This document shows positions 2,153 through 12,740 of a stretch of DNA of 64,000 nucleotides, one piece after another. A program made the position numbers and the translations under genes. The stretch is from Chloroflexota bacterium. GTDB lineage: Bacteria > Chloroflexota > UBA11872. The notes under the pieces were generated by a model. The model was not told the origin of the DNA. It saw nothing but the letters and a program-made list of their open reading frames with translations, and did no database searches. The DNA lies in the NCBI GenBank assembly GCA_028873795.1, contig JAPPNP010000053.1:1-64000 (forward strand), written 5' to 3'. The stretch's first letter is position 1, and the number at the start of each line of letters is the position of its first letter.

Positions 2153-5100
2153 TCACCCCGTCGAGCAGTTGGGGTAGTCGCTCCGGGCGGGCCGATCGGT
2201 GGCCGGGTGCGCTGGCCCGATGATGATGCGCTCGAAGAAGGCCGCGTCGGCCGCTGTGACGTCGCACCAGAAGAAGCCCAGCGCCTGGAACGTGGGGATG
2301 TCCGGCACGTGTCGCCACTGCCCCAGCCGCGAGTCGAAGGCCAAGATGCGATCGTCCCCACCGTCGAAGCGGCGCATGAGCATGTTCGGCGGTGGGTGCA
2401 GGTCGTCCAGGGGGATCGCCGAGATCACCCCCACCGGGAAGGTGTACTGCGAATTCACGATGGGCCAGGGAACCTGGTATACGAGGGGGCTATAGGGCGG
2501 TATCCAGCGGCGCACGACCTGGCCGTCGAACTCGCGCCGCACCACGGCGTAGGTCTGCCCGAGACTGGCATCGCGGACGAATCCGGTGACGCTGATGGTC
2601 CGGCCGTCCCGGGAGATTCGCCCGACGCCAACCTGGATTGCCACGCCCGGTTGATCGTGGCGTTCGATCACCACGACACCGGCGGACACTTCCCGAACCG
2701 TTGCGGCCGGGGTCGAGCCAACGATCGGCTGGGGCGGCGACGGTGCCGGCGGTGCCGACGGCGGCGGTGAGGTCGGTGGGGGCGACGGTGGCGATGGCGA
2801 TGGCGGGGGCGACGGTGGCGATGGCGGGGGTGGAGATGGCGCGCTGGGTCTACGTGGCGTGGCGGTCACGCTCTCCGACCAGTCGCCGCCGCCGGCGTCG
2901 TTGACCGCCTGCACTTGCACCCAATACTCAGTGCCGTTCGCGAGGCCGGTGATTGTGGTCGTCAAGGCGCCATCGTCAGCCGCCGTCCAGACATTCGCCT
3001 TTTCCGTTCTGGGACTCCCATAGCGCAGGTTGTACGCCCTGATCGCCACATCGGTCGCCCTCGCCGGTGCCCCGTCGTCCGCTGGCGCCGCCCAGGTCAC
3101 GGTGAGCTGCTTGTCACCTCTGACGACGTGGACATCCTGCGGCGCCGACGCCCAGCAATACGCCGAGACGTTGATGGTCAACTCGGGCCTATTCGCTAGC
3201 GCGGCCGGGATGCCTTGACTGATCTGCTGGCCGTTAACGAGCAGTTGTTCTAGCGACGTGATGCTGCCCAAGCTGGCCGGAATGTTGCCCATCAGCATGT
3301 TGCAGGCCAAGTTGAGCCCCCTCAGATCGGCGAGGCTGCTCAACTGGCCGGGGATGTTCCCGGTCAACTCGTTGTAGGCCAGGTTCAACTGCGTCAGTTT
3401 CGTCAGTTGACCCAGCGCGCCCGGAATGGAGCCGCTCAACTGGTTTCGGGCCAGCGTGAGCTCCTGGAGGTTGGTCAGATTGCCAAACTCCGCGGGGATG
3501 GGCCCGGTCAGCTGGTTGCCGAATAGGCTCAATCGCCAGAGGCTGGTGAGGCGGCCGAACTCCGTGGGGATCGGCCCGGTCAGTTGGTTGTCGTGTAGAT
3601 GCAAGAGCGTGAGGTTGGTGAGGCCACCCAACTCCGCGGGCATTGGCCCGGTCAACTGGTTGCTATCGAGTCGCACGGCCCTCAGGCTGGTGAGGCGGCC
3701 CAACTCCGCGGGGAGTGGTCCGGTGAGCTGGTTGACGTTGAGCCGCAGAAAAAGCAGGTTCGCGAGTTGGCCCAACTGCCTCGGGATAGTCCCGCTCAAC
3801 TGGTTTACGGCCAGCGAGAGTTCCCACAGGTTGGTCAGGCGGCCCAGCTCCGCGGGGATTGGCCCGGTGAGCTGGTTGAAATCGAGTCGCAGGAATCTCA
3901 AGTTGGTCAGATTGCCCAGCTCGCGCGGGATCTCACCGCTGAGCCGGTTGTTGGCGAGCGACAGCAAGTCAAGGTTCGCGAGGCGGCCAAACTCCGATGG
4001 AATCTTGCCGTGAAACTGGTTGCCACCGAGATGCAACGTGTCGAGGTTGGCGAGACGTCCCAGCTCGGGCGGGATCGTCCCCCTCAGTTGATTGTCATAT
4101 AGATCCATATTCGTGAGGTTGGACAGGCGGCCCAACTCCGCGGGGATTTTCCCGGTCAACTGGTTGCGATTGAGTTGCAGGACCGTCAGGTTGGTCAGAT
4201 TGCCCAGCTCCCGCGGGACTTCGCCGCTGAACTGGTTGCCGGCGAGATTCAGCGCGTTGAGGTTGGCAAGGCGGCCCAGCCGCGGCGGAATCGCCCCGCT
4301 CAGTTGATTGTCGTGTAGAACCAAATCCGTGAGGTTGGTCAGGGTGGCAAACTCCGCGGGGATTGGCCCGGTCAGCTGGTTGTAATCGAGTATCAGGACC
4401 GTCAGGTTGGTCAGATTGCCCAGCTCCGGCGGAATCGACCCACGCAGTTGATTGTCGGAAAGATCCAATTCCGAGAGGTTGGTGAGGCGGCCCAACTGCG
4501 CGGGGATTGGCCCGGTCAGCTGGTTGTGATCGAGTCGCAGGACCGTCAGGTTGGCGAGGCTGCCCAACCCCGCGGGGATTGGCCCGGTCAGTTGGTTGGC
4601 GTGGAGCTGTAGGACGTGCAGGTTCGCGAGCTGGCCCAACGGCCTGGGGATGGTTCCGCTCAGTTCGTTGGTGGCCAGCGTGAGTTCCCGCAGGTGGGTC
4701 AGGCGGCCCAACTCCGCAGGGATGGGACTGGTCAGCTGATTGTCGTGCAGCCGCAGATTCGCAAGGTTGGTCAGGCGACCCAACTCTGCGGGGATCGGCC
4801 CGGTCAGCTGATTGTCGTATAGATACAACTCCGAAAGGTCGGTGAGGCCGCCCAACACCACGGGGATGGGCCCGGTCAGTCGGTTGCGATCGAGCCACAG
4901 GACCCTGAGCTTGGTCAGGTTGCCCAACCACGACGGAATCGCCCCACTCAGTTGATTGGCGTGGAAATACAAATACCTAAGGTTGGTGAGGCGGCCCAGC
5001 TCCGCGGGGATCGGCCCGGTCAGCTGGTTGCCATGGAGTCGCAAGTCCACGAGGTCGGTGAGGTTGCCCAACACCGCGGGGATGGGCCCGGTCAGCTGGT

Positions 5101-6124
5101 TGTCGTTGAGATAGAGATACAAGAATTTTGTGAGGCTGCCCAACTCCTCGGGGATTGGCCCGGTGAGCTCGTTGGCGCCAAGATACATATGCATGAGATT
5201 TGTGAGGCGGCCCAACTCGGGCGGAATCGCCCCACTCAATTGATTGTCGTGGAGATACAAATGCGTGAGGTTGGTGAGGCGACCAAACTCCGCGGGGATC
5301 GGCCCGGTCAGCTGGTTGCCATGGAGCCGCAGGTCCCCGAGATCGGTGAGGCCGCCCAACTCCGCGGGGATGGGCCCGGTCAACTGGTTCTCCTCGAGAT
5401 ACAGCGCCGTGAGGTTGGTGAGGCCGCCCAACACCGCGGGGATCGGCCCGGTCAGCTGGTTGCTCCCGAGTTGCAGGTAAGTCAAGTTGGTGAGGCTGCC
5501 GAGCTCCGCCGGGATTGGCCCACTCAACCTGTTTCCGAAGAGATCCAATGTCGTGAGGTTGGTGAGGCGGCCTAGCTCGGGGGGAATCGCTCCACTCAGG
5601 TGATTGGCGTGGAGATACGAATGCGTGAGGTTGGTGAGGCGGCCCAACTCCGCGGGGATGGGTCCACTCAGTTGATTGATGGCTAGATTCAATCGCCTGA
5701 GGCTGGTCAGGCGGCCCAGCTCCGGCGGGATTGTGCCCCGAAGCCCTTGGTTGGCAAGGCGAAGCTCTATGACACGCTGCGCCTCAGTCGGAGGGTCAAC
5801 GCCGTCGTCGACGACAGACGCGACCGTGACGCCCGTCCAGTCGGCGATGGCGGTGCTACCCGACCAGTTCAGCGTCGCCGACGCATCCAGGTCCGCCTTC
5901 CCTTGCAACAGCCAGGCGCAGTCAGTGATGAGGTCGGTCTCGGTGGTATCGGGAACAACCGTGCCGTTGGAGCAGGTTTCGACATACGTCGGATCGGGCG
6001 TGGCGGCGGCATCGGAATCCGCCCGCGCCGCAACCGACAGGGACAGCACGCACAGCGTGCCAATGACCAAGACTCCGACGAGCAGCGCATGGCGTCGCCC
6101 GCCATTTGGCAACGCCTGCTGCAT
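2153..6124 (-). CDS. Secreted leucine-rich-repeat protein (35 plant-type LRRs, FnIII, Pro-rich linker, unknown C-terminal domain)
   Basis: 1323 aa from ATG 6124, chosen because GGAG sits 6 nt upstream; an in-frame GTG at 6154 lacks a comparable site. Residues 1-36 form a signal peptide. A Cys-containing N-cap (about 50-115) precedes 35 uninterrupted 24-residue repeats (about 128-967) of the form LTGPIPxELGxLTNLxxLxL, the type found in plant receptor kinases and some marine bacterial surface proteins. A degenerate capping repeat, a fibronectin type III domain (about 995-1085), a run of Pro/Ser (about 1090-1140) and a 180-residue C-terminal domain I do not recognise follow. There is no membrane anchor, LPxTG or PEP-CTERM signal, so it is probably released or held by the C-terminal domain. 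A role in cell-cell or host contact is inferred from architecture only. It is the only gene between the two tRNA-Pro repeat copies. Confidence 0.92.
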   Translation of the reverse strand: MQQALPNGGRRHALLVGVLVIGTLCVLSLSVAARADSDAAATPDPTYVETCSNGTVVPDTTETDLITDCAWLLQGKADLDASATLNWSGSTAIADWTGVTVASVVDDGVDPPTEAQRVIELRLANQGLRGTIPPELGRLTSLRRLNLAINQLSGPIPAELGRLTNLTHSYLHANHLSGAIPPELGRLTNLTTLDLFGNRLSGPIPAELGSLTNLTYLQLGSNQLTGPIPAVLGGLTNLTALYLEENQLTGPIPAELGGLTDLGDLRLHGNQLTGPIPAEFGRLTNLTHLYLHDNQLSGAIPPELGRLTNLMHMYLGANELTGPIPEELGSLTKFLYLYLNDNQLTGPIPAVLGNLTDLVDLRLHGNQLTGPIPAELGRLTNLRYLYFHANQLSGAIPSWLGNLTKLRVLWLDRNRLTGPIPVVLGGLTDLSELYLYDNQLTGPIPAELGRLTNLANLRLHDNQLTSPIPAELGRLTHLRELTLATNELSGTIPRPLGQLANLHVLQLHANQLTGPIPAGLGSLANLTVLRLDHNQLTGPIPAQLGRLTNLSELDLSDNQLRGSIPPELGNLTNLTVLILDYNQLTGPIPAEFATLTNLTDLVLHDNQLSGAIPPRLGRLANLNALNLAGNQFSGEVPRELGNLTNLTVLQLNRNQLTGKIPAELGRLSNLTNMDLYDNQLRGTIPPELGRLANLDTLHLGGNQFHGKIPSEFGRLANLDLLSLANNRLSGEIPRELGNLTNLRFLRLDFNQLTGPIPAELGRLTNLWELSLAVNQLSGTIPRQLGQLANLLFLRLNVNQLTGPLPAELGRLTSLRAVRLDSNQLTGPMPAELGGLTNLTLLHLHDNQLTGPIPTEFGRLTSLWRLSLFGNQLTGPIPAEFGNLTNLQELTLARNQLSGSIPGALGQLTKLTQLNLAYNELTGNIPGQLSSLADLRGLNLACNMLMGNIPASLGSITSLEQLLVNGQQISQGIPAALANRPELTINVSAYCWASAPQDVHVVRGDKQLTVTWAAPADDGAPARATDVAIRAYNLRYGSPRTEKANVWTAADDGALTTTITGLANGTEYWVQVQAVNDAGGGDWSESVTATPRRPSAPSPPPPSPPSPPPSPSPPSPPPTSPPPSAPPAPSPPQPIVGSTPAATVREVSAGVVVIERHDQPGVAIQVGVGRISRDGRTISVTGFVRDASLGQTYAVVRREFDGQVVRRWIPPYSPLVYQVPWPIVNSQYTFPVGVISAIPLDDLHPPPNMLMRRFDGGDDRILAFDSRLGQWRHVPDIPTFQALGFFWCDVTAADAAFFERIIIGPAHPATDRPARSDYPNCSTG
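3224..5743 (-). repeat. Array of 35 tandem 72-bp LRR units
   Basis: The LRR-coding part is a DNA tandem array with a strict 72-bp period and no indels across 35 units. Several units are near-identical, for example those coding LTGPIPAELGRLTNL. Such an array is prone to unequal recombination and to assembly collapse, so the repeat count here may not be the true genomic count. Confidence 0.9.
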
Positions 6125-6208
6125 CGGTCGCTCCGCCCTGGGCGTCTGCGCCACCGCGGGGATGAACCGCAGTTACGCCAGTACCCGTAGGTACCGACTC
6201 TATCGATG

Positions 6209-9127: not shown

Positions 9128-10156
9128 TCAGGCGCTGGCGGCCACCAGCTTGGCGCGCGACATCTGCGCCGCCACCTTGATGGCGTGGTCCAGGCTGTCT
9201 TCCCGCGCGCGTCCTTCGCCGGCGCGGCCGTAGGCGGTGCCGTGGTCCACGCTGGTGCGGATGATCGGCATGCCCACCGACACGTTGATGCCGTCAAAGA
9301 ACCCCGCGGTCTTGACCGCCACGTGGCCTTGGTCGTGATACATGGCGACGATGCCGTCGAAGCGCCCGTCGATGGCCTTGTTGTAGACCGTGTCGCCCGG
9401 CTCGGGTCCGGTTACGTCCATGCCTTCCGCCCGCGCCGCTTCGATGGCGGGGAGAATCTCGTCCACGTCCTCGTCGCCGAACAGCCGGTCCTCGCCCGCG
9501 TGGGGGTTGAGCCCGTTCACGGCGATGCGCGGATGCTCGAAGCCGAGCAGCTGCAGCGACTCGTGCAGCAGCCGGATGCAGTGCAGCACGTTGTCCTTCT
9601 TCACGCGCTCGATGGCCTCCCGCAGCGAGACGTGGGTGCTGTTGTGGATCACCCGCAGCGTCGGCGCCACCAGCAGCATGCGAGTGCCCGGCGTCTCGGT
9701 CAGGTCCGCCAATAACTCGGTGTGGCCGGCGTAGTGATAGCCGGCGCGGTTGATGGCTTCCTTGTGGATCGGTCCGGTGACGATGGCCGCCGCGCGACCG
9801 TCCATGACCAGCTTGGCGGCTTCGATCACCGCCTCGGCGGAGGATCGTCCGCCCTCGACCGTCACCTGCTTGAAGGGCAGGTTGCTCAGGTCCTCGCCCC
9901 ACGGATCGTAGACCTCGATCGTGCCGTGAACATATCGCGCCGATTCCGGGTCGACGGCGCGCACGTCCAGGTCCGATCCCAGGATGCCGGCCATGCGCTC
10001 GATTGCCGAAACGCTGCCCACGGCGAGCGGTCGGCAGATGTCGTAGGTCTCGGGCTTGGCAAGGGACTTGATCAGGATCTCCGGCCCGACTCCCGTCGGG
10101 TCGCCCATGGTGATGGCGAGCAGCGGTCGGTCGGCGTCGGCGGTTGCGGTGGGGAT
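9128..10156 (-). CDS. PdxA2-like 4-phosphate dehydrogenase (four-carbon sugar-acid or hydroxythreonine phosphate)
   Basis: The PdxA family oxidises and decarboxylates 4-phospho-hydroxythreonine or, in the PdxA2 branch, 4-phospho-D-threonate/erythronate. Metal-binding His residues are visible in AGHTE, NPHAGE and MYHDQGHVAVK. The first ATG (10108) would begin at MGDPTGVGPEI and delete the first beta strand; in-frame sequence directly upstream codes RPLLAIT, as expected for PdxA. No ATG, GTG or TTG occurs in that extension, but an ATC at 10154-10156 follows AAAAGGAG by 6 nt, so I place the start there (342 aa). The upstream DUF1537 kinase strongly favours the PdxA2 sugar-acid role over pyridoxal synthesis. 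Confidence 0.8.
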   Translation of the reverse strand: MPTATADADRPLLAITMGDPTGVGPEILIKSLAKPETYDICRPLAVGSVSAIERMAGILGSDLDVRAVDPESARYVHGTIEVYDPWGEDLSNLPFKQVTVEGGRSSAEAVIEAAKLVMDGRAAAIVTGPIHKEAINRAGYHYAGHTELLADLTETPGTRMLLVAPTLRVIHNSTHVSLREAIERVKKDNVLHCIRLLHESLQLLGFEHPRIAVNGLNPHAGEDRLFGDEDVDEILPAIEAARAEGMDVTGPEPGDTVYNKAIDGRFDGIVAMYHDQGHVAVKTAGFFDGINVSVGMPIIRTSVDHGTAYGRAGEGRAREDSLDHAIKVAAQMSRAKLVAASA

Positions 10157-10162
10157 GCGGGG

Positions 10163-10170
10163 CTCCTTTT
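10163..10170 (-). promoter_or_regulatory. Strong Shine-Dalgarno before a non-standard ATC start
   Basis: AAAAGGAG on the minus strand, 6 nt upstream of the in-frame ATC at 10154-10156. It is the best ribosome-binding site in the 94-bp gap and decides the pdxA start proposed here. Confidence 0.6.
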
Positions 10171-10250
10171 GACGTGCGCTCTCGACGGCACTCGGCGGTA
10201 AGTGTAGTCAGGCCAAGAGGCGTGTGCGCGAGCGAGCGGCGGATCGCCGG

Positions 10251-11465
10251 CTACGGCGTTCCAATCGCGCGCAGGGCGTCGACCAGCGCGGTCGGCCCGC
10301 CCATCACCCCGGCCTTGGTGACCACCGGCCACCCCTCGCCGCGTCCCGACGTGAACACGCCGTAGGGCACGCCCCACCCAATCTCGCCGGCGAGCTCGAT
10401 GGCTTCCGCCGGGATCGCCGCAAACGCGGCGCGCGCCGTGTCGCCGCCCGAGAGCACCAGCCCGATCGGGCGCGTGCCGCGCCAGATTGTGCCCGTGAAT
10501 TGGGTGACGAGGGCCTGCTGCGCGGCCTGGGCTTCCGGCGATGGGTGCTTGACGGGGATGACGGCATCCACCAGGGCGGGGCGGTCGAGTGACCAACCCG
10601 CACGCACGGTTGCCGCCGCCATGATGGAGGCGCCGGGCAGCTGCGGGAGCGGAATGGGCTTGACCCCGAGCGTGGCCGCCGCCTCGGCCAACTGCTGCTG
10701 CGTATGCTCCATCGGCGACCCGATGATGGCGAGCGTTCGCGTCGTGCGCGACATCTCGGGAACGGGTTGGGGCGGAGTTTCGTCGAGCCGCGCGAGGGGC
10801 GCCGCCAGGCCCGCCGATCCAGCGCTGACGCGAAGGAGATCGGCAGCGTCCATGGCCGCCGCCACACACTGGAGATCGGAGTCCTCCGCGATGTCGGGAA
10901 GGATCACGTTCACCCCCGCGTCGCGGGCTTCCCGCAGGGCGTCGGCGAGCGCGGGCACGCCCGATCGCACGACGGACGTGGGAATGACCCGGCTCGTCAA
11001 CGCCGAGGTGGATTGAATCAGCGTCGGGATATGCGACTCCAGCGCCGGCGTCACCGGGTCGCGACCGGGATCCGCCTCGGAAACCGGGGTGCCCCAGAGC
11101 GTCAACGTGCCTGACTCGGTGGTCCGGCCCCCCGAGGGAAACGCCGGTGTGTACACCAGCGTCGCAGCGTCCGTGCCGTCGAGCGCCGCCTGGAGCTCCG
11201 CCGCGATGTTTCCTCGGAGCAGCGAGTCGGTCTTCTTGTAGATCAGCGCGCCGGGGGCGGCGGCGCCGACGGCGCCGCGCACCGCGTCATACGCCGCGGA
11301 CGCCCCGAGGTGTCGCGATGCGGTGCTCATCGCCATCGTCTGGGAGTCCGGCGGCCATGTGCCGTCGCGGGTGGAGACCCGGGTGCGACGCCCGGCGTTC
11401 CGAAACTGCAGCGCCGTGTCCAGGGCGCCGGTCAAGTCGTCGGCGATGATCGCCCACTGCGACAT
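10251..11465 (-). CDS. DUF1537 four-carbon acid sugar kinase
   Basis: 404 aa, the usual length. The N-terminal SBD domain opens with IIADDLTGALDTALQF, where the DDLTGA motif binds the sugar acid, and KKTDSLLRGN follows. The C-terminal nucleotide-binding domain carries GLVLSGGDTA and KAGVMGGPTALVDAL, matching the ATP-binding GGDTA and K-x-G-x-FG/GG signatures. Characterised members phosphorylate D-threonate, D-erythronate or 3-oxo-tetronates, and the DtnK-PdxA2 pair converts D-threonate to DHAP. It starts 3 bp after larA ends and is followed by the PdxA2-like gene, exactly the DtnK/PdxA2 arrangement. Confidence 0.9.
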   Translation of the reverse strand: MSQWAIIADDLTGALDTALQFRNAGRRTRVSTRDGTWPPDSQTMAMSTASRHLGASAAYDAVRGAVGAAAPGALIYKKTDSLLRGNIAAELQAALDGTDAATLVYTPAFPSGGRTTESGTLTLWGTPVSEADPGRDPVTPALESHIPTLIQSTSALTSRVIPTSVVRSGVPALADALREARDAGVNVILPDIAEDSDLQCVAAAMDAADLLRVSAGSAGLAAPLARLDETPPQPVPEMSRTTRTLAIIGSPMEHTQQQLAEAAATLGVKPIPLPQLPGASIMAAATVRAGWSLDRPALVDAVIPVKHPSPEAQAAQQALVTQFTGTIWRGTRPIGLVLSGGDTARAAFAAIPAEAIELAGEIGWGVPYGVFTSGRGEGWPVVTKAGVMGGPTALVDALRAIGTP

Positions 11466-11468
11466 GGG

Positions 11469-12740
11469 TTAGTTCGTGAGGGGAAGCGTGTCGGGCGCGT
11501 GCGTGAGCACGCCCACCGATGCGTTGGCGCGGGAATCGGCGGTGGCAAGGTCGAGCGCCGCTTCCACCGTGTCGGCCCGGTCGAACGCCAGGGCGCGGAC
11601 GTCTTCCCGCGACACTCCGTCCGAAACCAGGATGATCCGCGCATGCTCGCGAACGCGCGCCCAGGCGGTTGCCAGCGATGCGGCCACCGGGTCGTCGAAC
11701 TCGCCCTTTTCGTAGCGGGTGATGAGCGCGTCGGCCGGCGACGCCGTGTAGTCCAGCATCTCCGAGTGCATCACGGCCACGCCCTCGGGGCATGGGGTCA
11801 CCACGATGATCGTTCCTCCCGGTCGCACCATCATGGCCGCGGGGTAGAGGCTCTTGTGCGCCTGCCAGAACTCGATGTCGCAGGGGTGCGAGCCGGCGAC
11901 GACGATATCGAGCCCCTTCGGTGCGGGCACGCCGTAGATCCGACGGGCGTCCGCCACGGCGCGCCGATAGGCGCCACGCGTGGTTCCGAAGCGCGCCGTG
12001 ACGAGCCGGCCGTCGCTATTGAGCGTGACGTTGAGGACGTGGTGCATGCCGGACCGTTCGGCGATGGTTTCCATCTCGCGGCGCACGGGAGTGACTACCT
12101 GCCCGAGCAGCGGCTCGACGGCGCGGGCGCTGAACATGTGGGTCGCGGCGGTGGTGGCGGCGCCCGACACGCCCGGCTGCACGATCTTGGCTCCGGCCGA
12201 GAATCCGGCGATGTGGTGGGGGACGACCGCTCCGGTGCCGATGACCAGGTCGCGTTCGAACAGCCCGGCGTTCACATGCACCGGCGTGCCGTCGGGCGTC
12301 GTGCCCAGGTCGCGCAACGGGGCGACCGTGTGGTCATGCTGGGTGACCTCGACCCGGGCGAGCACCTCGTCGCCCAGCTTGGCGCGAACCTCGTGAGGCG
12401 TCATCGGGCGGTGCGTGCCCAGGGCAATCATCACCTGCACGGCGTCGTCGGGCAGTCCCCCGGCGCGCAGCTCTTCGAGGATTGCCGGCACGAGCAAATC
12501 TGTCGGCGTTTCGCGGGTGATGTCGTCCACGAGGATCAGCGCCGAGCGAGCGTCGCGGGCCGCCATGCGCAGCCGCGGGCTGTCCACGGGGTTCGCCAGC
12601 GCTTCGCGGACGACGCGCTCCGGGTCGGGGGCAGGCTCAGCCGGGTGCGGCGTGAAAACGCCGGCCAGCACGGCGTCGTGGTTGACCTGAAAGCGCAACT
12701 CCGCCGCGCCGTAGGGAATCGTGACGAACTCGCCTGGCAC
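11469..12740 (-). CDS. larA: LarA-family nickel-pincer 2-hydroxyacid racemase/epimerase
   Basis: 423 aa from GTG 12740, matching LarA length and alignment. All key residues of Lactiplantibacillus LarA have counterparts at almost the same positions: Arg76 (DDITRETP), His110 (GTHRPM), His175 (VPHHIAG), Lys185 (SAGAKIVQPG, the residue that tethers the nickel pincer nucleotide), His201 (ATHMF) and Lys296 (FWQAHKSLYP). The enzyme should therefore be active. The family swaps stereochemistry at C2 of 2-hydroxyacids by hydride transfer. The neighbouring kinase and dehydrogenase suggest a four-carbon sugar acid rather than lactate. Cofactor genes larB, larC and larE are not in the window. Confidence 0.9.
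   Translation of the reverse strand: MPGEFVTIPYGAAELRFQVNHDAVLAGVFTPHPAEPAPDPERVVREALANPVDSPRLRMAARDARSALILVDDITRETPTDLLVPAILEELRAGGLPDDAVQVMIALGTHRPMTPHEVRAKLGDEVLARVEVTQHDHTVAPLRDLGTTPDGTPVHVNAGLFERDLVIGTGAVVPHHIAGFSAGAKIVQPGVSGAATTAATHMFSARAVEPLLGQVVTPVRREMETIAERSGMHHVLNVTLNSDGRLVTARFGTTRGAYRRAVADARRIYGVPAPKGLDIVVAGSHPCDIEFWQAHKSLYPAAMMVRPGGTIIVVTPCPEGVAVMHSEMLDYTASPADALITRYEKGEFDDPVAASLATAWARVREHARIILVSDGVSREDVRALAFDRADTVEAALDLATADSRANASVGVLTHAPDTLPLTN

Follow-up and report, generated by a model that had tools for sequence, protein, structure and literature searches.

LarA-family enzymes, which depend on a nickel-pincer nucleotide (NPN), are represented among described proteins by LarA, Mar2, LarA_Ip and GntE (PMC7583248, PMC11770544, PMC11851776), and few NPN-enzyme reactions have a known physiological pathway. 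Here we describe a larA homologue directly upstream of genes for a DUF1537 kinase and a PdxA-type protein in a 64,000 nt stretch of contig JAPPNP010000053.1 from a Chloroflexota bacterium (hereafter the window, in whose numbering all window coordinates are given). The window LarA resembles the described enzymes in its fold, its catalytic histidines and NPN-binding residues, and the presence of LarB, LarC and LarE in the genome; unlike them it belongs to a separate clade, scores under the cut-offs of all named NCBIfam LarAH models, has a pocket that none of the published signatures matches and is linked to a four-carbon acid kinase and a PdxA. Judging from sequence and gene context, it is probably a member of a new LarA clade with tetronate 2-epimerase activity, and we put at roughly 0.6 the probability that it is an NPN-dependent C2-epimerase interconverting D-erythronate and D-threonate and feeding a DUF1537–PdxA2 pathway.

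The DUF1537–PdxA2 pathway of D-threonate catabolism was reportedly established by Zhang et al. in 2016. Two papers cite it (PMC10971088, PMC9997740), and the window shares with it a two-domain DUF1537 kinase adjoining a PdxA2-like gene, with tripartite ATP-independent periplasmic (TRAP) transporters in the window's relatives; it differs in that a LarA-family enzyme would add an upstream step and in that the kinase and PdxA are divergent, below the equivalog cut-offs. The aldolase–DUF1537 pathway for L-threonate and D-erythronate, known for example in Brucella and comprising LtnD/DenD, OtnI, OtnK and OtnC (PMC10580937), handles the same substrate class with a DUF1537 kinase, but uses a dehydrogenase, an isomerase and OtnC where a redox-neutral nickel epimerase is proposed here. 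No match to DenD/LtnD, OtnI or OtnC was found among the scanned neighbouring proteins, the rest of the genome lying outside that search. GntE, a nickel-dependent D-gluconate 2-epimerase (PMC7583248), is likewise a LarA-family C2-epimerase placed in sugar-acid catabolism by gene context, although its substrate has six carbons, its pocket residues are E,V,A,H, and the window LarA falls below the hexonate-group cut-off.

An initial annotation of this DNA knew of no described pathway with a LarA step, and our search of the open-licence literature agrees: it found neither a threonate/erythronate epimerase nor a paper joining LarA with DUF1537 or PdxA, in both cases with the gene-context table (Table S1) of the LarA survey published in 2020 (PMC7583248) outside its coverage. 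That survey covers the gene contexts of 25 LarA groups, and the larA–DUF1537/pdxA neighbourhood may already be listed in Table S1, without an activity. If the proposed activity is correct, four-carbon sugar-acid catabolism would acquire a nickel-dependent, redox-neutral entry step, and some of the many LarA-superfamily proteins still without a name would gain a pocket signature and a function.

The LarA homologue and its clade

Five consecutive genes on the minus strand encode an alpha/beta hydrolase, an FAH-family protein, LarA, the DUF1537 kinase and PdxA, with intergenic gaps of 72 bp (hydrolase–FAH), 29 bp (FAH–larA), 3 bp (larA–DUF1537) and 94 bp (DUF1537–pdxA). The last three are indeed consecutive within 9128–12740, where the initial annotation had placed them, and the operon extends upstream of that interval through the FAH-family and hydrolase genes. 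The larA gene (12734–11469, minus strand) has a GTG start and encodes a candidate NPN-dependent 2-hydroxyacid epimerase of 421 amino acids (Pfam Lar_N 6e-54, LarA_C 4e-11). It is followed by a candidate four-carbon acid sugar kinase of 404 amino acids, which is D-threonate-kinase-like (11465–10251, minus strand; Pfam SBD_N 3e-46, NBD_C 3e-15), and by a candidate PdxA2-like 4-phosphotetronate dehydrogenase/decarboxylase of 342 amino acids, counted from a probable ATC start (10156–9128, minus strand; Pfam PdxA 1e-96).

Alignment to LarA bears out the claim that the pincer residues are all conserved, as the window protein carries the equivalents of D72, R75, H108, H174, K184, H200, Q295 and K298. 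The two catalytic histidines, the NPN-binding R/K/H residues and the Q/K carboxylate binders are present in it and in all 42 aligned relatives, and the active-site columns are invariant across 27 diverse members of its clade. An AlphaFold (AF2) model has a mean predicted local distance difference test score (pLDDT) of 88.6 and a template modelling (TM) score of 0.92 to the substrate-bound racemase 9eia (Foldseek E 1e-39). The larB/C/E genes, which the initial annotation had left to be looked for elsewhere in the genome, are all there and score over their respective curated cut-offs; larB and larC are neighbours on contig 21, and larE lies on contig 82. With these genes encoded and the residues in place, the host is able to make the NPN cofactor and the active site of the window LarA is complete; its loading with NPN is presumed.

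The protein belongs to none of the named LarAH groups, a membership ruled out by the NCBIfam cut-offs. Its best match is the malate racemase model LarAH6, and against the named groups (lactate, malate, LarAH10, hexonate) its bit scores and cut-offs are 302/500, 274/462, 246/460, 240/540 and 76/500; eight diverse relatives also fall under all the named cut-offs. A tree of 58 LarA proteins places it in a single clade with support of 100/100 and a long stem (0.95), set apart from the lactate, malate and broad-range racemases, and among 400 sampled Chloroflexota genomes no clade member scores under 610 bits and no other protein over 426. The clade has a near-invariant pocket consisting of H174 followed by His-Ile (H175, I176) in place of Phe-Phe, for which we call it the HHI clade, together with W294, H297, A/S358 and mostly L359; its proteins also share the near-invariant string SHPCDIEFWQAHK.

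Published specificity signatures assign F,F,W,E/Q to lactate (LAR), H/Q,K to malate (MAR), E,V,A,H to gluconate (GntE) and Y,F,H/Q,T to 2-hydroxyglutarate (HGR) (PMC11770544). The pocket residues of the HHI clade, which at the specificity positions of the window LarA are H,I,S,L, fit none of these. This bears on whether the protein could be a plain lactate, glycerate or malate racemase that sits in the operon incidentally, a reading that the promiscuity of the superfamily and the malate racemase as best NCBIfam match would allow. We regard it as distinctly improbable, given the unmatched pocket, the linkage conserved across phyla that is described below, and a second LarA in the host genome (contig 80), which has the lactate/glycerate signature F,F,W,Q and, at 455.7 bits, falls under the lactate racemase cut-off of 460. 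With that second protein in the genome, the LarA of the operon probably does not serve as the lactate racemase of the cell; its differing specificity residues also make it unlikely to racemise lactate only.

The host genome encodes two additional Lar_N proteins, both divergent (G000:C3:31140-31652 and G000:C34:20644-21063), one of which has PHEGAGFAGGAK at the loop.

Linkage to DUF1537 and pdxA across phyla

Clade loci came from two sources: a scan that took a single genome for each species gave 43, and a sample of 381 genomes from the class to which one Negativicutes member belongs gave 24 matches in 22 genomes, two of these matches (L213, L214) having lost the His-Ile motif. Linkage was counted over HHI loci, duplicates removed, that have flanks of 2.5 kb or more on either side, a partner being scored when it lay within 5 kb, and LarA loci lacking the HHI motif served as controls. 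DUF1537 or pdxA accompanies larA at 41 of 50 clade loci versus one of 21 control loci; the sole linked control has PdxA, and DUF1537 is found at none of the 21. Outside the window's own family the proportion is 27/36 (Fisher p ~8e-10 for 41/50 versus 1/21 and 2e-7 for 27/36, both uncorrected for relatedness). TRAP transporters occur at 10–11 clade loci and at 0/20 controls, their solute-binding proteins at 11 clade loci and at no control.

The adjacency that the initial annotation had noticed at this one locus is thus co-conserved, with the kinase and/or PdxA, in Chloroflexota, Hydrogenedentota, Negativicutes, Spirochaetota and Syntrophaceae. The order is larA–DUF1537–pdxA in Chloroflexota, pdxA–larA–DUF1537 in Hydrogenedentota and others, DUF1537–pdxA–larA in Sporomusa, Pelosinus and other Negativicutes, DUF1537–larA–TRAP in Spirochaetota and DUF1537–pdxA–TRAP–larA in Syntrophaceae. 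That the partners are kept while their order is shuffled is good evidence that larA, DUF1537 and pdxA share a pathway. A bounded LarA clade with so strong and repeated a context narrows the candidate substrates, and it has members in cultured Sporomusa and Pelosinus as well as in uncultured Chloroflexota.

The same counts leave next to no chance that we are dealing with a fortuitous adjacency or a decayed gene. In one relative larA is interrupted by an internal TAA stop (L053/G009:C38:11891-13135), which is either recent decay or an assembly error and would suit such an explanation, but the window frame is intact and the active site does not vary among the 27 diverse members; as far as sequence allows, the comparison of 50 loci with 21 rules chance adjacency out.

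The gene orders also raise the question of whether LarA acts after the kinase, epimerising the phosphorylated intermediates 4-phosphoerythronate and 4-phosphothreonate, since larA often adjoins pdxA and six loci have pdxA with no DUF1537 nearby. We consider this improbable, as we know of no LarA that acts on a phosphate ester. The pocket, with A/S358 and mostly L359, also has no lysine like that of the malate racemases for a second anion (PMC11770544).

Two further features were noted at a locus in an Anaerolinea-type genome: a gene for an Nramp-family divalent metal transporter upstream of larA (L065:2709-4199), perhaps for metal supply, and a DUF1537 frame with a C-terminal four-helix-bundle (TIGR02436) domain (L065:7299-8918), a possible fusion or frame artefact.

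The proposed route and its weighing

Only C2, which LarA enzymes invert, distinguishes D-threonate from D-erythronate, and D-threonate has as its 2-amino analogue 4-hydroxy-L-threonine, the 4-phosphate of which is the natural PdxA substrate. PdxA-type enzymes are therefore expected to want the D-threo isomer, and a C2-epimerase is thus the step that D-erythronate would need. C2-epimerisation of 4-deoxy-threonate/erythronate by LarA enzymes has been reported (PMC11770544). In the route we propose, the window LarA would bind the NPN made by LarB, LarC and LarE and would use hidden proton-coupled hydride transfer to invert a four-carbon 2,3,4-trihydroxy acid at C2, most likely turning D-erythronate (2R,3R) into D-threonate (2S,3R) and back. 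The DUF1537 kinase would then add a phosphate at O4 of the D-threo isomer, after which PdxA2 would oxidise C3 and decarboxylate the product to give dihydroxyacetone phosphate and CO2. One kinase/PdxA2 pair could in this way serve both epimers with no net redox change, dispensing with the dehydrogenase and isomerase that the known D-erythronate route employs. The suggestion in the initial annotation that LarA feeds an epimer into the tetronate pathway survives as the best reading of the context, the co-conservation and the non-lactate pocket, whereas the substrate, its enantiomer and the direction of the reaction are what we infer. In G018, a relative whose genome is a single contig, DUF1537–pdxA is kept and this LarA is missing, a pattern that fits LarA as an optional feeder.

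The window kinase, the only DUF1537 protein in the host genome, scores 191.7 bits with the NCBIfam model for D-threonate kinase (DtnK), the named family nearest to it, versus 86.6 with that for 3-oxo-tetronate kinase (OtnK), and the same preference, always below cut-off, is seen in every relative scored. Against the PDB, the window PdxA scores 272 and 267 bits with the PdxA2-type structures 6e85 and 2hi1 and 197 bits with E. coli PdxA. It is the only PdxA in a genome that also has PdxS for vitamin B6 synthesis, and because this single pdxA coexists with PdxS it is likely to be a catabolic PdxA2; a role in pyridoxal phosphate biosynthesis is correspondingly unlikely, as judged from PdxS and PdxA in a search that did not extend to PdxJ.

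Several observations weigh against the proposed route. To our knowledge no member of the HHI clade has been assayed. The kinase score compares with a D-threonate kinase cut-off of 450 bits, and PdxA reaches 304.5 bits against 583 for D-threonate-4-phosphate dehydrogenase (NCBIfam, PRK03371). Five clade loci have DUF1537 with no pdxA nearby, apart from the six with the converse, and in relatives DUF1537 pairs with an FAH-family gene without pdxA. The window operon has no transporter gene, and no role is assigned to its FAH-family gene or to the gene for the alpha/beta hydrolase. Within the pocket, Y294 of LarA_Ip hydrogen-bonds the substrate 2-OH (PMC11851776), and this position is Trp in the window LarA. 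Finally, an IlvD-family dehydratase is found near seven of the 14 non-duplicate HHI loci with neither DUF1537 nor pdxA within 5 kb, where it stands in for both; by score most of the neighbouring IlvD proteins are ordinary dihydroxy-acid dehydratases, and the PanB neighbour likewise scores as the ordinary biosynthetic family.

The IlvD loci bear on the idea that LarA acts on another 2,3-dihydroxy acid, such as 2,3-dihydroxyisovalerate, a 4-deoxytetronate or a C5/C6 aldonate, with the kinase and PdxA handling one derivative or an unrelated branch. Besides these seven, four further HHI loci hold IlvD together with DUF1537 and pdxA, several IlvD-bearing clade loci also have PanB or an HMGL/DmpG aldolase, and LarAH10 is known to racemise 2,3-dihydroxyisovalerate (PMC11770544). 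Given the ordinary scores of most of these IlvD proteins and of the PanB, a branched 2,3-dihydroxy acid may be an alternative substrate. A branched-chain acid would, however, leave the much commoner DUF1537/PdxA partners and the TRAP transporters unexplained, and IlvD followed by PanB/HMGL would also suit a four-carbon acid that passes through 4-hydroxy-2-oxobutanoate and is split into pyruvate and a one-carbon unit. Dehydration of D-threonate to 4-hydroxy-2-oxobutanoate has been shown with other dehydratases (PMC10079672), and a literature search for PanB acting on 4-hydroxy-2-oxobutanoate found nothing usable. On balance we think a different dihydroxy acid unlikely, while keeping it in view.

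Two derived clade members, which could be cited for the same alternative, no longer have the motif's second His (L213, 7352–8623, and L214, 7518–8843; loops PHIVPG and PHYIPG), and their neighbours are a galactarate-dehydratase-like gene or a TRAP transporter, with no DUF1537 or pdxA. The pattern hints that this histidine matters for the tetronate context, and these proteins have possibly switched substrate.

Extending the D-erythronate/D-threonate assignment to the whole clade is more tentative. The HHI clade could represent unrecognised, phylum-crossing nickel-pincer tetronate C2-epimerases that direct D-erythronate, and possibly other tetronates, either into DUF1537–PdxA2 or into an IlvD plus PanB/HMGL route giving pyruvate and a one-carbon unit, in all a new redox-neutral entry to the catabolism of four-carbon sugar acids; we would place this wider proposal somewhat short of even odds.

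Neighbouring genes and the pdxA start

The FAH-family protein (13588–12764, minus strand; 274 amino acids) has the Pfam domains FAA_hydrolase and Rv2993c-like_N. The alpha/beta hydrolase (14467–13661, minus strand; 268 amino acids; Abhydrolase_1) is PcaD-like, with weak PcaD matches below cut-off, and is possibly a lactonase. The gene block including both is kept in almost every examined relative of the window's own family, the FAH gene being adjacent in nearly all loci of that family and the hydrolase staying with it in relatives. At five loci from relatives of the class, each locus lacking this LarA (L156, L157, L158, L161 and L162), DUF1537 directly adjoins an FAH-family gene without pdxA; those with the same order also hold an alpha/beta-hydrolase-like gene, and the pairing is uncharacterised.

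The window pdxA has no ATG, GTG or TTG between the last in-frame stop and the conserved first strand (10170–10154, minus strand). A Shine-Dalgarno-like sequence, AAAAGGAG (AAAGGAG; 10163–10170, minus strand), lies 6 nt before an ATC codon, and all six examined species of the genus (the window and G001–G005) share both. Translation probably starts at this ATC at 10156 (an AUC codon) and not at the ATG at 10108.

Elsewhere in the window, an open frame of 1333 amino acids on the minus strand (2153–6154) contains numerous leucine-rich repeats of plant-like type along with a proline-rich linker.

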